A stretch of DNA of 64,000 bases from Sedimentibacter saalensis (GTDB taxonomy: Bacteria > Bacillota > Clostridia > Tissierellales > Sedimentibacteraceae), in contig NZ_VLKH01000007.1 of the NCBI RefSeq assembly GCF_007830175.1, forward strand, positions 62,001-126,000, given 5' to 3'. Positions 6,557-59,482 of this stretch are shown here, piece after piece (the first letter of the stretch is position 1; each line of letters opens with the position of its first letter). The notes under the pieces were generated by a model, which saw only the letters and a list, made by a program, of their open reading frames with translations, was not told the DNA's origin and did no database searches. Both the position numbers and the translations under genes were made by a program.

Positions 6557-6838
6557 TAATAGTTAATGCGTTGAAGCAGAGAAAAGTATTTTGGAAGTCT
6601 ACAGAGAATTGGTGGTGCTGAGAGCCAATGACAGAGAAATATAATATACACTGCTGAGCTGGTTTGTTCAACGGTAATTCAAGTAGACAAACACGTATAC
6701 CTACGTTACAGGGTTAGAGGTTGTTAGACCTCGAAGAGTGATGATTTTTTAATCATAATTAGGGTGGTACCGCGGATCTTTCGTCCCTATAAGCACATTT
6801 AAAAAAGTGTGTTTATAGGAATGAAAGATTTTTTTTTA
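6557..6838 (+). promoter_or_regulatory. T-box riboswitch, probably tyrosine-specific
   Basis: The T-box sequence AGGGTGGTACCGCG is at 6761-6774. A long terminator stem follows, running from ATCTTTC (from 6776) to GAAAGAT before a T8+ run (6829-6838). Stem I runs from TTGAAGCAG (about 6571) to CTGCTGAGC...TTCAA, with the AGAGAAAAGTA internal-loop signature and a GGTGGTGCTGAGAGCC apex. On the 3' side of the specifier loop the sequence is ATATACACTGC, so the specifier is TAT or TAC (6645-6649), both tyrosine codons. The T-box bulge TGGT demands a tRNA ending ACCA, as in tRNA-Tyr, and excludes tRNA-Trp with its G discriminator. The specifier was assigned by eye; an Ile (ATA) reading cannot be fully excluded. 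Confidence 0.9.
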
Positions 6839-6839
6839 T

Positions 6840-7206
6840 GACCTAACCCAATATGTTCAAGCGATAGCGAAGAACATATTGTTGGTAGGTCAAACGCAAT
6901 GAGAACCAAATTTTCGCGACCGTAGGGAGCAGGAAAATTTGTGTTCGAAACTGCGAATGACCAGCGACAGCCTCAGGAAGTCAATGGTAGGTCAAACGCA
7001 ATGAGTTCCAATTTTGTGCGACCGGAGGAAGCTGACAAAATTGTGAACGAAACTGCGAATGACCAGCGACAACCACAGGAAGTCAAAGGTAGGTCAAACG
7101 CAACGAAATCCAATTTTACGCGACCGGAGGAAGCTGACAAAATTGTGAACGAAACTGCGAATGACCAGCGACAACCACAGGAAGTCAAAGGTAGGTCATA
7201 CAAATA
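6840..7206. repeat. 102-bp tandem repeat block with nested palindromes
   Basis: AGGTCAAACGC-type units begin at 6887, 6989 and 7091, and a truncated fourth begins at 7193, an exact period of 102 bp. Each unit holds a hairpin with a conserved loop (GCGACCGGAGGAAGC type) and a stem that varies but stays paired: CAAATTTTC/GAAAATTTG, then CAATTTTGT/ACAAAATTG. A second short dyad TGAC/GTCA frames CAGCGACAACCACAGGAA. The block is preceded by a larger imperfect palindrome (6840-6892) with AATATGTTC/GAACATATT. Because 102 is a multiple of three, both strands are open through it; 6941-7222 would encode a 34-residue repeat, but it has no convincing RBS, so I do not call a gene. It lies between the T-box terminator and the transporter genes. 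Confidence 0.9.
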
Positions 7207-7284
7207 CATTCCAAAAGATTAAATATTAAACTTTGCGCAGAGTTGAAATATGAACAATTAGAATAGAAAATTATGGAGGATATT

Positions 7285-8319
7285 ATGAAATTCGGAAAAA
7301 TTAATAAGATTATAGCAATAGCAATGTGCGTGCCCATGATTTTAGCTGGCTGCGCAAAAAGTGACGCTGCAGACAAATCAGAGGCAGCTCAACCAAAACA
7401 AACTACAGAAGAAGCAACATCAGTAAAGGAAGAACAATTTACCATAGGAATAGCAGAACTTGTACAGCATCCGGCACTTGATGCTTCAAGACAGGGATTT
7501 ATAGATGAACTTGCAAATCAAGGCGTTAATGCAGTCCTTATAGACCAAAACGCTCAAGGTGAAATTTCAAATGCACAGATGATAGCAGAAAAATTTGTTA
7601 AAGATGATGTTGATTTAATATTTACAATAGCAACTATTACATCTCAGGCTGCGAAGCAGGCTATTGAGGGAACAGATATACCTTTAGTTTTCACAGCCGT
7701 TACAGATCCTGTTTTTTCACAGCTTGTTACTGCAATGGACGTTACGGACAACAACATTACAGGAGTTGTGGATGCAGCTCCAATAAAAGAAAACCTGGAA
7801 CTTTTCAAGGAACTAAAAAAAGATATAAAAACAATAGGAATTATTTATAATATAGGTGAATCAAATTCAGAGGTTCAAGTCAACCAGACAAAAGAAATTG
7901 CAAAGAGTTTAGGACTTACAATTGAAACAGTGGGAATTTCAACTGTAAATGACATACCTCAAGCTGTTAACACCGTTTCTAAAAATGCAGAAGGACTGTA
8001 CATTATAACAGACAACATGGTTGCATCATCAATTTCACTGGTGGCTAAGCTTGCTCAGGAAAACAAACTTTTAACAGTATCTGCAGACGGTACACATGTT
8101 GATGAAGGGATAATGGTTTCCAAAGGAATAAGCTTCTACGGAATAGGAAAGCAATCAGCAGTAATAGCAAAAAAGATTCTTGTGGACAAGGTTCCTGTTT
8201 CTGAAATACCGGTTCAGACAGCTCCTGAATTTGAAAAGAAAGTAAATGTGAAGACAATGGAAGCACTTGGTTTCACAAAAGACAATTCTGCATTCGAAGG
8301 GGCAGAGTTTGTCAATTAA
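7285..8319 (+). CDS. ABC transporter substrate-binding lipoprotein (TrpX-like)
   Basis: A 344-residue periplasmic-binding-type protein of the ABC_sub_bind family. The ATG at 7285 is used because GGAGGA lies five bases upstream; the ATG at 7273 overlaps that RBS. The N-terminus is a lipoprotein signal (KINKIIAIAMCVPMILAGC, lipobox LAGC), then an Ala/Thr/Glu-rich linker and the domain from TIGIAELVQHPALDASRQGF. This family, with its permease and ATPase, is known as the tryptophan-type uptake system TrpXYZ in Gram-positives. Here the upstream T-box points to tyrosine. It is first in a three-gene operon. Confidence 0.9.
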   Translation: MKFGKINKIIAIAMCVPMILAGCAKSDAADKSEAAQPKQTTEEATSVKEEQFTIGIAELVQHPALDASRQGFIDELANQGVNAVLIDQNAQGEISNAQMIAEKFVKDDVDLIFTIATITSQAAKQAIEGTDIPLVFTAVTDPVFSQLVTAMDVTDNNITGVVDAAPIKENLELFKELKKDIKTIGIIYNIGESNSEVQVNQTKEIAKSLGLTIETVGISTVNDIPQAVNTVSKNAEGLYIITDNMVASSISLVAKLAQENKLLTVSADGTHVDEGIMVSKGISFYGIGKQSAVIAKKILVDKVPVSEIPVQTAPEFEKKVNVKTMEALGFTKDNSAFEGAEFVN

Positions 8320-8425
8320 GAATGAAGAATGAAAAGTGAAGAATTATTAGATTAATCAAGGATTTGTGCTTTGCACAAATCCTAACCACAATTCTTAATT
8401 CTTAACTATTAATTCTTAATTAATT
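8314..8425. repeat. AATTAAG palindromic element, copy A
   Basis: Left arm AATTAAGAATGAAGAATG, central hairpin GGATTTGTGC/GCACAAATCC (8360-8369/8373-8382), right arm ATTCTTAATTCTTAAC...AATTAATT. The left arm supplies the TAA stop of the upstream lipoprotein gene. Related to copies near 10.9, 21.7, 29.3, 40.0, 43.8, 53.5 and 59.4 kb. Confidence 0.85.
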
Positions 8426-8444: not shown

Positions 8445-9311
8445 ATGAACACATTAATGATTGCATCAATTGAACAAGGCCTCATATTTGCAGTGCTTGC
8501 AATAGGAGTTACCATAACATTTAAAATACTTGACTTTGCTGACATGAGCGTTGAAGGGACGTTCCCAATGGGAGCATTCATATTTTCAAAATTCATTATA
8601 GCAGGAGCAACACCATTAACAAGTACTATGATGGCATTTTTCCTTGGTACTCTAGCAGGTCTCATAACTTATACACTTAACATAAAACTGAAAATCAAGT
8701 CTCTGCTTTCTGGAATTCTCACAATGACCATTTTGTATTCAGTAAATTTAAGACTTAACGGAAAATCAAACATAGGACTTTTTAACTACTCTTCCATATT
8801 TGACGGCAGGGAAGCAGTGATAGTGTTAATTATAATAATAGCAGCCGTCAAAATACTGATGGACATGTTTTTGAAAACAGAAGTTGGATATCTTTTGATA
8901 GCAACAGGAGACAATGAAACCCTTGTAAAATCTCTTGGGGAAAATTCAAACAGGTATAAAATGATAGGACTCATGATATCAAACGGGCTTGTGGGATTAA
9001 GCGGAGCCATGATGGCACAGTACCAGGGATTTGCAGATATAAACATGGGTATGTCAATAATAGTTACAGCCATAGCTTCAATAATAGTGGGAGATACCAT
9101 ACTAAAAAAATCAAGGAAGCTAAAAAATACAACAAGAGCAATAATGGGAGCGTTGGTTTACAAATTCATAGGGGCGGTAGCCATTGACCTGGGCCTGGCA
9201 CCTACGGATCTGAAGGCAATAAATGCAATAATAGTGATTTTGTTTTTAAGCTACAATACATTTGCACCGGAAATAAAAAATAAGAGATCAACGGAGGCAG
9301 CACAATGCTAG
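8445..9311 (+). CDS. ABC transporter permease (TrpY-like)
   Basis: A 288-residue inner-membrane permease of the BPD_transp_2 type, with about eight hydrophobic segments. Typical family landmarks are FKILDFADMSVEGTF near residue 30 and the cytoplasmic GDNETLVKSLGEN loop near 155, the likely contact with the ATPase. GGAAGGG precedes the ATG. It is separated from the lipoprotein gene by a palindromic repeat element and overlaps the ATPase gene by seven bases. It forms the transmembrane channel of the T-box-controlled amino-acid uptake system. Confidence 0.9.
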   Translation: MNTLMIASIEQGLIFAVLAIGVTITFKILDFADMSVEGTFPMGAFIFSKFIIAGATPLTSTMMAFFLGTLAGLITYTLNIKLKIKSLLSGILTMTILYSVNLRLNGKSNIGLFNYSSIFDGREAVIVLIIIIAAVKILMDMFLKTEVGYLLIATGDNETLVKSLGENSNRYKMIGLMISNGLVGLSGAMMAQYQGFADINMGMSIIVTAIASIIVGDTILKKSRKLKNTTRAIMGALVYKFIGAVAIDLGLAPTDLKAINAIIVILFLSYNTFAPEIKNKRSTEAAQC

Positions 9312-10081
9312 ATATAAAGAACATGTCAAAGAGCTTCAACATAGGAACGGACAATGAAACAAACATATTCACAAGCTTTGACTTCCATATAAACAAGGGA
9401 GAATGCACAGGGATTCTCGGAGCAAACGGCTGCGGAAAGAGTACGTTGTTTAACATAATTAGCGGAGCAATAATACAGGAAGAAGGAGACATAATATTAA
9501 ACGGTGAAAACATAAACCGCCTTAAGGAAAATGAAAGGGCAAAATTCATAGGAAGAGTGCACCAGAACCCTTCTGCAGGAGTGTCTCCATCTCTCACAAT
9601 ACTTGAAAACATAAGCCTCTCAGACAAAAAATGCCAGAAGTTCGGTTTGAGAAAGCTCATAAACAAAAATAAAATAAGCCAGTATAGGGAAATGCTAAGC
9701 ACACTGGACTTAGGCCTGGAAAACAAGCTTGACACGGAAGTGAAATTTCTTTCGGGGGGGCAGAGGCAGTCTTTGTCACTTTTGATGGCAACAATGAACA
9801 AGCCGGAGCTTCTTCTGCTTGATGAACACACGGCAGCACTTGACCCAAAGACATCAAGGCTCATAATGGAAAAAACAAAGGAGCTCATAAATACCCACAG
9901 CATTACAACAATGATGATATCCCACAACGTGAGGGATGCCATAAAATATTCGGACAGAATAGTGATGCTTGACAAAGGACGTGTCATACTTGATGTGAAA
10001 AACGGATGTATCACAGAAAAGGAACTGCTTAATATTTACAACTCAAGGAATTCAGGAATGATGTTTCAGGAAGCTGTATAA
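9305..10081 (+). CDS. ABC transporter ATP-binding protein (TrpZ-like)
   Basis: A 258-residue ATPase subunit. It shows Walker A GANGCGKST (about 39-47), Q-loop region VHQNPSAGVSPSLTILENIS, signature LSGGQRQSLSL (about 150-160), Walker B LLLLDEHTAALD and the H-loop MISHNVRD. The glutamate after the Walker B aspartate is present, so it should be catalytically competent. Its start overlaps the permease stop, typical of a coupled transporter operon. It energises import by the upstream permease and lipoprotein. Confidence 0.93.
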   Translation: MLDIKNMSKSFNIGTDNETNIFTSFDFHINKGECTGILGANGCGKSTLFNIISGAIIQEEGDIILNGENINRLKENERAKFIGRVHQNPSAGVSPSLTILENISLSDKKCQKFGLRKLINKNKISQYREMLSTLDLGLENKLDTEVKFLSGGQRQSLSLLMATMNKPELLLLDEHTAALDPKTSRLIMEKTKELINTHSITTMMISHNVRDAIKYSDRIVMLDKGRVILDVKNGCITEKELLNIYNSRNSGMMFQEAV

Positions 10082-21723: not shown

Positions 21724-21808
21724 TAATTAAGAATTAAGAGTTAAGAATTAAGAATTATAAGTTAAAATAAAAAGCAATTGGTGATTTCGGTTCATCAATT
21801 GCTTTTTG
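21724..21808. terminator. Bidirectional terminator with AATTAAG arm (copy C)
   Basis: AATTAAGAATTAAGAGTTAAG arm-type repeats (21724-21760) are followed by AAAGCAATTG (21771-21780) / CAATTGCTT (21796-21804) and T5. The hairpin lies between convergent ilvE and the Ca2+-ATPase gene and can serve both. Confidence 0.8.
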
Positions 21809-53499: not shown

Positions 53500-53565
53500 C
53501 AATTAAGAGTTAAGAATGAAGAATTAAGAATTATTGAAGATTTGTGCTTAAGCACAAATCTTTAA
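53500..53565. repeat. AATTAAG element, copy G (left arm and hairpin)
   Basis: CAATTAAGAGTTAAGAATG arm then AAGATTTGTGC/GCACAAATCTT hairpin (53537-53562). The hairpin resembles that of copy A (GGATTTGTGC/GCACAAATCC). A clear right arm is missing. Confidence 0.8.
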
Positions 53566-58443: not shown

Positions 58444-59403
58444 TTGATAAAACCGATACATCTTAAAAGAGGCGACAAGGTTGCCGTTGTTGCTCCTTCT
58501 TCTGCAACTGATTTGAAATCAGTTCAAAATGGAGAATTAAAAGTAAGGGCGCTTGGTCTGGAGCCTGTAATGTTTCCAACATGCTATACAAATTATGGAC
58601 ATCTTTCGGCACGAGATGAAGAACGGGCAAGAGACATAAACAATGCTTTCAGGGATGAAGACATAAAAGGAATAATATGCTTAAGAGGCGGCTATGGAAC
58701 TCCCAGAATATTAGACATGCTTGATTATGACATGATATCAGAAAACCCCAAGGTTTTCGTAGGCTTTTCAGATATTACTGCTCTTCATGTTGCATTCAAT
58801 CAATTATGCGGACTGACAACGTTCCACGGCCCCATGGCAACATCAAACTATGCAAAAATTCAAGGCGAAAGAGTTGATTTTGAATCTTATACATATGAAA
58901 GTCTTGTAAAAAACCTGTTTTCTGATGAACCTATGGGAATACATAAAAATCCCAATGGAGAGCAATTAAAAAGTTATTGCAGAGGCTTGGGTGAGGGAAT
59001 TCTCATTGGAGGAAACCTTACGCTTCTTACTGCCTGCATGGGAACAAAGTATGAGGTGGATACAAGAGACAAAATATTGTTCATTGAAGAAGTAAGCGAA
59101 CCAATTTACAAAATAGACCGAATGCTTACTACGCTTGCCTTGGCAGGGAAGTTCAACCATTGCAGAGGAGTGATTCTCGGCACATTCACAGGGTGTGAAA
59201 GAGAGAAAAAAGCTTATGAGGGAGGATTTGACCTTCCGTTGGAAGACGTGATTGAAAACACAATTGTTCCGTTCGGCAAGCCTGTCATTTACAACTTCAA
59301 GGCAGGACACAGCTTCCCGCAGCCAACTCTTCCGCTTGGAACACAGGTTAAAATAGATGCGGATTTAAAACAGGTTGTTTTTATGGAAAGCGGAGCTATA
59401 TAA
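58444..59403 (+). CDS. Murein LD-carboxypeptidase (peptidase S66 family)
   Basis: A 319-residue S66 serine peptidase starting at TTG 58444 (GGGGG nine bases upstream). Motifs are VAVVAPSSATD at the N-terminus, the nucleophile region VGFSDITALH (about 107-116, Ser), the glutamate in LFIEEVSEPIYKIDRML and the histidine of KAGHSFPQPTLPLG. LdcA removes the terminal D-Ala from L,D-linked murein tetrapeptides; relatives (MccF) cleave microcin-type acyl-AMPs. The neighbours alr, M20 peptidase and D-aminopeptidase favour the peptidoglycan-peptide role. Confidence 0.9.
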   Translation: MIKPIHLKRGDKVAVVAPSSATDLKSVQNGELKVRALGLEPVMFPTCYTNYGHLSARDEERARDINNAFRDEDIKGIICLRGGYGTPRILDMLDYDMISENPKVFVGFSDITALHVAFNQLCGLTTFHGPMATSNYAKIQGERVDFESYTYESLVKNLFSDEPMGIHKNPNGEQLKSYCRGLGEGILIGGNLTLLTACMGTKYEVDTRDKILFIEEVSEPIYKIDRMLTTLALAGKFNHCRGVILGTFTGCEREKKAYEGGFDLPLEDVIENTIVPFGKPVIYNFKAGHSFPQPTLPLGTQVKIDADLKQVVFMESGAI

Positions 59404-59482
59404 ATTAAGAGTTAAGAATTAAGAATTAAGAATTATTAGTCATATATGGCGTTGTCATCCTGAGCTAGCGAAGGATCTCATC
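59402..59482. repeat. AATTAAG arm (copy H) plus GTCATCCTGAG repeat
   Basis: AATTAAGAGTTAAGAATTAA arm (59403-59437) is followed by GTCATCCTGAGCTAGCGAAG (from 59454) and GATCTCATC, an imperfect palindrome ATCCT/AGGAT. The second motif resembles a short repeat scattered through many bacterial genomes. The remaining sequence to 59543 is featureless. Confidence 0.75.

Follow-up and report, generated by a model that had tools for sequence, protein, structure and literature searches.

What is the 102-bp tandem repeat that stands between a T-box leader and a set of ABC transporter genes in Sedimentibacter saalensis? An initial annotation, made from the letters of the 64,000-nucleotide stretch analysed here (the window), saw in it either an RNA structure tuning expression after antitermination or a mobile palindromic repeat that had expanded in tandem, and pointed to a 93-residue frame kept open by a unit divisible by three. 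In our judgement the array quite probably arose by tandem expansion from one copy of a non-autonomous mobile DNA element, a palindromic unit about 118 nt long with two imperfect hairpins. This element is dispersed in many copies, mostly outside genes; its structure is kept by compensatory change, and it has been inserted beside empty paralogous sites. It often lies exactly behind terminator T-tracts or at stop codons, and the host base on its left complements one at the 3' foot of its first hairpin. Genomes (G) and loci (L) are cited below by working labels where they have to be told apart; G000 is the genome of the window.

The array in the transporter leader

The tandem repeat is real. Tandem Repeats Finder places it at 6884-7198 (period 102, 3.1 copies, 90% matches, score 497), the top score among eight rows for the window, and a repeat search recovers three 114-nt copies spaced 102 and 102. 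The T-box noticed upstream is recognized by Rfam (Table 1), and the array starts where the T-tract of its terminator ends, at 6837. Both strands of the array fold far beyond shuffled sequences (z -7.2 and -9.3; 0 of 100 shuffles as good).

Copies compared side by side reveal a unit longer than the one first delimited, a dispersed element of two hairpins, hp1 and hp2. A whole element opens the array, with an additional hairpin at 6836-6894; two hp2 units with a shortened hp1 between them follow, and a third shortened hp1 comes last. The left boundary of the element falls inside a T-tract, where exact placement is impossible. The paired but diverged stems with conserved loops that had been described are found in units 1 and 2 and fail in unit 3, where the 5' side reads AAATCC, the 3' side still reads GTGAAC, and the match of CAATTTTAC with ACAAAATTG is now incomplete. 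To judge from these arms, unit 3 looks like a mosaic, its 5' arm resembling one subfamily and its 3' arm another.

Table 1. Features of the leader, the array and the genes behind it, in positions of the window
Feature	Position	Strand	Basis
T-box leader RNA, upstream of the array	6562-6791	+	Rfam RF00230, 137.2 bits, E 2e-30
T-tract of the T-box terminator	6829-6837	+	sequence
Base taken as flanking host base, pairing with 6894; 6837 taken as first base of the element	6836		boundary inferred from rRNA-leader and rplJ sites
Complete element (hp1 + hp2) plus one flanking base	6836-6955	+	covariance model R1, 133.9 bits, G000:C7:68836-68955
hp1: variable palindrome CAATATGTTC/GAACATATTG within conserved TGACCTAACC/GGTAGGTCA	6837-6894	+	
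Internal dinucleotide AA, matching the flank	6893-6894	+	within hp1
hp2, unit 1: base CGCA-A-TGA / GAAAC-TGCG with tandem G.A, stem, GCGACCGTAGGGAGC loop	6895-6955	+	
Short hp1 variant (ATGACC...GGTAGGTCA), copy 1	6957-6994	+	sequence
hp2, unit 2	6997-7057	+	nhmmer core match 6986-7057
Short hp1 variant, copy 2	7059-7096	+	sequence
hp2, unit 3 (apparent mosaic, stem partly broken)	7099-7159	+	nhmmer core match 7088-7159; sequence
Short hp1 variant, copy 3; end TAGGTCAT mirrors ATGACCTA at array start	7161-7199	+	
93-residue open frame, judged accidental	6941-7222	+	
ABC transporter substrate-binding protein	7273-8319	+	PF04392
ABC transporter permease	8445-9311	+	PF02653
ABC transporter ATPase	9305-10081	+	PF00005

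A dispersed family of paired hairpins

The consensus of hp1 consists of ATGNCCTAACCC, a freely varying palindrome and GGTAGGTCA, with a variable dinucleotide next; that of hp2 consists of CGCAAYGA, a stem, a GCGACCGNAGGGAGC-like loop and GARACTGCG. The initial annotation had proposed a search for further copies of the palindrome, and these are plentiful. BLAST of the array against its own genome gives 48 matches at E<=10 and 38 at E<=1e-3, and a covariance model built from 43 copies finds 52 at E<=4e-4 (150 of the 1230 candidates from the first look were scored, with each tandem unit and partial copy counted on its own). At E<=1e-3 the model matches 22 of the 24 other genomes of the genus and, the own genome included, 120 of 249 genomes of the order; at the stricter E<=1e-8 the order figure is 80 of 249, and many of the weaker matches belong to family f4. 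In a phylum-wide draw of 398 genomes, searched with stricter filters and nine candidates scored per genome, so that weak copies could escape, the own genome is the sole match at E<=1e-8. The genome sample contains one genome per species, and carriers among the matches listed include Sedimentibacter acidaminivorans, S. hydroxybenzoicus, Tissierella pigra and an Emergencia strain.

A known RNA family was rejected, as nothing in Rfam rises above chance. The element of the window has no match at the gathering score and, at E<=5, only mir-6095 on hp1 (E 0.79, chance level; 19.7 bits where the gathering score is 100); the elements of 42 distinct loci have none (5 scanned at E<=0.5, 40 at the gathering score, three in both). 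Carriage by plasmids, phages or viruses was likewise rejected: plasmid and phage collections hold no match to the element, nor do viral contigs in an exact pattern search. Literature searches, with subscription papers largely outside their coverage, returned no report of this repeat family.

The covariance analysis that had also been proposed reveals strong covariation of the stems. In 43 sequences picked with BLAST, nhmmer and motif searches rather than with the covariance model, both sides have changed in 26 of 42 pairs, and 92.2% of cells are paired, against 80.0% in shuffled and 34-45% in slid alignments; one hp1 pair (columns 7-58 of alignment A1) is mismatched in 25 of the 43 copies. Before A1 was built, nine hp2 copies had been removed for want of a recognised hp1, as had one row containing masked letters. 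The model was run on 99 loci, including 80 of the 112 stretches listed. In 123 distinct matches, whose alignment is fitted to the model, 41 of 42 pairs have changed on both sides and 93.8% of cells are paired.

An RNA that is kept for its fold should have an excess of G.U pairs over A.C mismatches, as tRNA does, and a DNA palindrome need show none. Acceptor stems of tRNA from the loci examined, 136 in number and counted by fixed position, gave a yardstick of 48 G.U and 9 A.C. In hp2 the corresponding counts are 18 and 26 in A1, and 58 and 63 in alignment A2. Since hp2 thus has no G.U excess, unlike tRNA, its pairing constraint looks like that of a DNA palindrome rather than of an RNA. All pairs of A2 taken together give 138 G.U and 80 A.C, about 39 of those G.U coming from one class-specific hp1 pair.

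Insertion sites and the base at the left junction

Leaders of rRNA genes provide filled and empty sites within one genome, and these are insertions. Among the leaders fetched from G021, five are empty and read CTTGAG followed directly by CAAGAATATAAAACG, and one is filled, with the element between the G and the C and the right flank one base off; in G000 one leader is filled and one is empty at the same place, with two changes in the right flank. These one or two changes count against the reading. Target-site duplication at the rRNA site could amount to at most one base. All five leaders fetched from G014 are filled, and the four fetched from G008, G019 and G024 are all empty, so that the 16S-leader copies number five in G014 and one each among the leaders fetched from G021 and G000. 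The element precedes the 16S gene by a few tens of bases in L222, L223, L231, L232 and L233 (G014), and in L216 and L228. Spacers between tRNA genes, considered as further empty sites, were too diverged for junction placement.

Another recurrent site is a gap that we take to be the one between rplJ and rplL; in L029 and L036 an L10 leader precedes it. By eye, about nine genomes have the element, or a relic, starting there directly at the upstream stop codon. In L305 and L307 the copy immediately follows the first gene's stop codon, in what appears to be this gap in a ribosomal protein operon. The gap is without the element in L310, L316, L317 and L320, and is occupied by another repeat in L312, L314 and L318. 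Because many sites, this one included, are common to several species, movement of the element looks slow. The junctions indicate that the preceding base belongs to the host and that the element begins at the next one, with a shift of one base possible in some cases. Several copies lie, by eye, inside another repeat family. A second dispersed repeat (TGTCATYCTGARC... ...GAGATTCTTCGGGC) hosts insertions of the element at L019, L020, L027, L038, L115, L145 and L148, and is itself found directly behind the presumed rplJ stop codon in L312, L314 and L318.

For a general view of landing contexts, 129 of the 175 rows of A1 and A2 were retained, namely those that were distinct, had enough flank, measured 100-135 nt and had a readable AGGTC word. 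By flank dinucleotide and internal triplet they fall into TT-AAA (45), AG-ATT (41), GT-AAC (22), GC-AGC (2) and 19 scattered combinations. A terminator is predicted just upstream in 30 of 45 TT copies, 15 of 22 GT copies and 1 of 41 AG copies; TT and GT together have one in 45 of 67 cases and, by the rule used, lack one in 22. Control positions, tried at one offset where elements were tried at two, gave 34 of 3973 anywhere in the loci, positions inside genes included, and 48 of 4000 when restricted to sequence outside long open frames. In 16 of 41 AG copies, 1 of 22 GT copies and 0 of 45 TT copies, a long frame has its stop codon ending between -2 and +1 nt from the flank dinucleotide, against 32 of 4000 controls. 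The remaining 25 of the 41 AG copies were not found at a stop; 12 of the 41 had no such frame near, and 4 had too little sequence. Listed copies in five genomes are mostly co-oriented with replication (113 of 127; 34 of 36 in G185, where 79% of 296 sampled ORFs are so oriented, and 19 of 27 in G239); a replication-strand bias was set aside as not clearly beyond gene orientation.

Of the 129 rows, 118 are flanked by host sequence, and one copy per site leaves 100; in 98 of these the host base at the left junction is the Watson-Crick complement of the second internal base, whereas in 20000 shuffles such complements averaged 34.9 and never exceeded 54. For the next three flank positions, compared with the internal bases that follow, no such match is seen (4, 6 and 8 of 100), and in class AG the second pair is G.T, not Watson-Crick, in 41 of 41. 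The covariance model contains the flank pair and could slightly favour matching copies; among the 43 copies chosen without it, 39 match. Units that follow another in tandem match in 4 of 11 cases, all four of class AG. That the match is found at host junctions and mostly not at tandem ones speaks for a choice of target rather than a merely maintained stem. Class (TT, GT or AG) is partly inherited, and therefore not every site is an independent choice: on the element tree, itself poorly resolved, classes change 30 times, against a mean of 48 and a minimum of 37 with shuffled labels, and the supported branches alone offer four independent pairs per contrast, nearly all agreeing, which is too few for significance.

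These contexts bear directly on the proposal that the hairpins act in cis within the transcript, tuning how the T-box leader is read through after antitermination. The array does lie between the T-box and the transporter genes and has a strong RNA fold; T-boxes stand directly upstream at seven further G000 loci (L005, L007, L008, L011, L012, L016 and L021), and in L012 (1250-1842, minus strand) the element is placed between two of them. Yet the same structure recurs at rRNA leaders, tRNA spacers, ordinary terminators and stop codons, and related arrays differ in the spacing and number of units; given these many kinds of site, the varying unit number and the G.U/A.C symmetry of hp2, we do not accept regulation as the main reading and consider it very unlikely. 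Strong RNA-like covariation in a riboswitch leader need not mean regulation. An incidental effect of the array on the leader is possible, and any effect on the transporter genes would be a side effect.

The AG copies raise a different possibility, namely a REP-like element kept for a role at gene 3' ends, where it would protect mRNA or slow ribosomes at nearby stops, and REPs of E. coli within 15 nt of a stop codon are indeed reported to lower translation (PMC12306157, in the text available). The copies exactly at stop codons and the recurrence in the presumed rplJ-rplL gap agree with such a role; the TT and GT copies, however, lie mostly behind terminators and hence outside the upstream transcript, several species have only relics or nothing at rplJ, and the missing G.U excess of hp2 again points away from RNA, so that we regard this role as rather improbable. 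As to a coding tandem repeat whose 102-bp unit holds a protein frame open, the length is divisible by three and the 93-residue frame is open as described, but the spacing is 103 nt in L032 and L033 (the orthologous transporter locus) and in L100, the L032 and L033 arrays contain internal stops in all three frames, and searches with the frame give nothing in Pfam at E<=0.01 and nothing in PHROG below E 0.025. The frame looks accidental, and the coding reading is hardly credible.

Mode of movement and known relatives

The reading that the array is an expanded mobile DNA element, which the initial annotation had named as its alternative, is backed by the census of copies, the filled and empty sites and the insertion contexts. 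One copy may have landed behind the T-box terminator in an ancestor shared with at least G003, and the hp2 units would then have multiplied through unequal recombination or slippage. From a geometry similar to that of IS200/IS605 we infer that the element moves as a folded single DNA strand and that the mobilising enzyme acts in trans; the 3' foot of hp1 would help to select the target base or to keep hold of it, a task that pairing performs in IS200/IS605. Considered as an IS200/IS605 derivative, the family offers one matching host base at nearly all sites, with pairing as a possible mechanism. A bolder version, that the landing site is picked by base pairing between the 3' foot of the left hairpin and the target, and that AA, AC or TT in this foot switches the element between a terminator T-tract and a stop-codon end, is put forward tentatively, with more doubt than conviction.

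To our knowledge, how small bacterial palindromic repeats choose their landing sites is mostly unknown. The interest of the present family lies in the family itself, in its two kinds of landing site together with the matching base: it seems to carry the choice of target in its own sequence, through classes of internal dinucleotide, a host base that matches and sites of two precise kinds. If targets were chosen by pairing, the family would be a natural insertion system that evolves, is programmed by a guide and is directed at the ends of genes.

The nearest parallel that we found, by analogy, is the BOX element of Streptococcus pneumoniae, which in the available text of its description is likewise small, dispersed, modular and strongly folded, has modules multiplied in tandem, and was judged parasitic and slow-moving (PMC3049150). 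One BOX lies between two T-boxes of the pneumococcal trp leader, and some have open frames (PMC3049150), which parallels L012 and the window. The likeness is one of description: BOX is composed of boxA-boxB-boxC modules and belongs to streptococci, and the present element is composed of two hairpins and belongs to Tissierellales. BOX is also overrepresented between convergent genes, and the accessible part of the report mentions no match between a flanking base and the element (PMC3049150).

REP sequences associated with TnpA-REP (RAYT) are comparable in being palindromic, mostly extragenic, in some cases near stops, and arranged in pairs and clusters, according to the available parts of two reports (PMC3733652, PMC12306157), and a REP-like GTAG word is present in GGTAGGTC of our element. 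REP units, however, measure 20-40 bp (PMC3733652, in the text seen), against about 118 nt here, where the two hairpins differ and keep a fixed head-to-tail order. The main texts do not contain Clostrid or Firmicutes (PMC3733652), nor Sedimentibacter, Tissier or Clostrid (PMC12306157).

Similar in geometry is IS608 of the IS200/IS605 group, described, in the portion of the source at hand, as having two subterminal hairpins and inserting 3' of a short flank that stays as the left flank (PMC5934647). Its guide, in the same account, is four bases long and lies 5' of the hairpin (PMC5934647), whereas here one host base is clear and is matched at the 3' foot; also unlike IS608, the element has no transposase gene inside. 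Classical MITEs of the DDE type have terminal inverted repeats and a target-site duplication; the family is set apart from them, as the two ends of single elements differ (ATGNCCTAACC against ACTGCG) and at most one base could be duplicated at the rRNA site. Group IIC introns insert right behind terminator hairpins. In contrast to these, the scanned elements have no intron match in Rfam, 118 nt is too small for a reverse transcriptase, and the stop-codon class rarely has an upstream terminator (1 of 41).

As for a partner enzyme, the own genome has three Y1_Tnp matches, two of them over the cut-off and none linked to the element, and the loci examined yielded neither an autonomous element nor a transposase with these ends. 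A RAYT partner was rejected: L051, L052 and L053 contain no copy of the element (best chance match E 1.8), and the two Y1 genes that were read with their flanks, the IS200-like ones of L051 and L052, adjoin other palindromes, GGGGACGG-like and GGGCGGAC/GTCCGCCC-like by eye. Among 340 hp2 matches in the loci examined, 30 have no adjacent hp1, and four combinations of an isolated hp1 with an isolated hp2 were marked. Candidates for an autonomous version were dismissed in turn: L078 and L130 have another palindrome inside hp1 or hp2, L102 has two full elements, and L152 spans, by eye, genes resembling those of fatty acid synthesis.

Some minor observations accompany the family. A third palindrome, with arms like ACACTCAG / CTGAGTGT, is inserted within hp1 or hp2 at about 3430-3700 of L078 and about 2845-3030 of L130. 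Four versions in G185 (488821, 3018919, 3464340 and 3725424) measure 161 nt, some 40 nt over the usual length, and resemble a subfamily. At 8390-8421, 21725-21765, 53501-53533 and 59403-59435 the window also has short arrays built on a 7-bp unit, AATTAAG or AATTCTT, and similar runs are seen by eye in L025 and L033.
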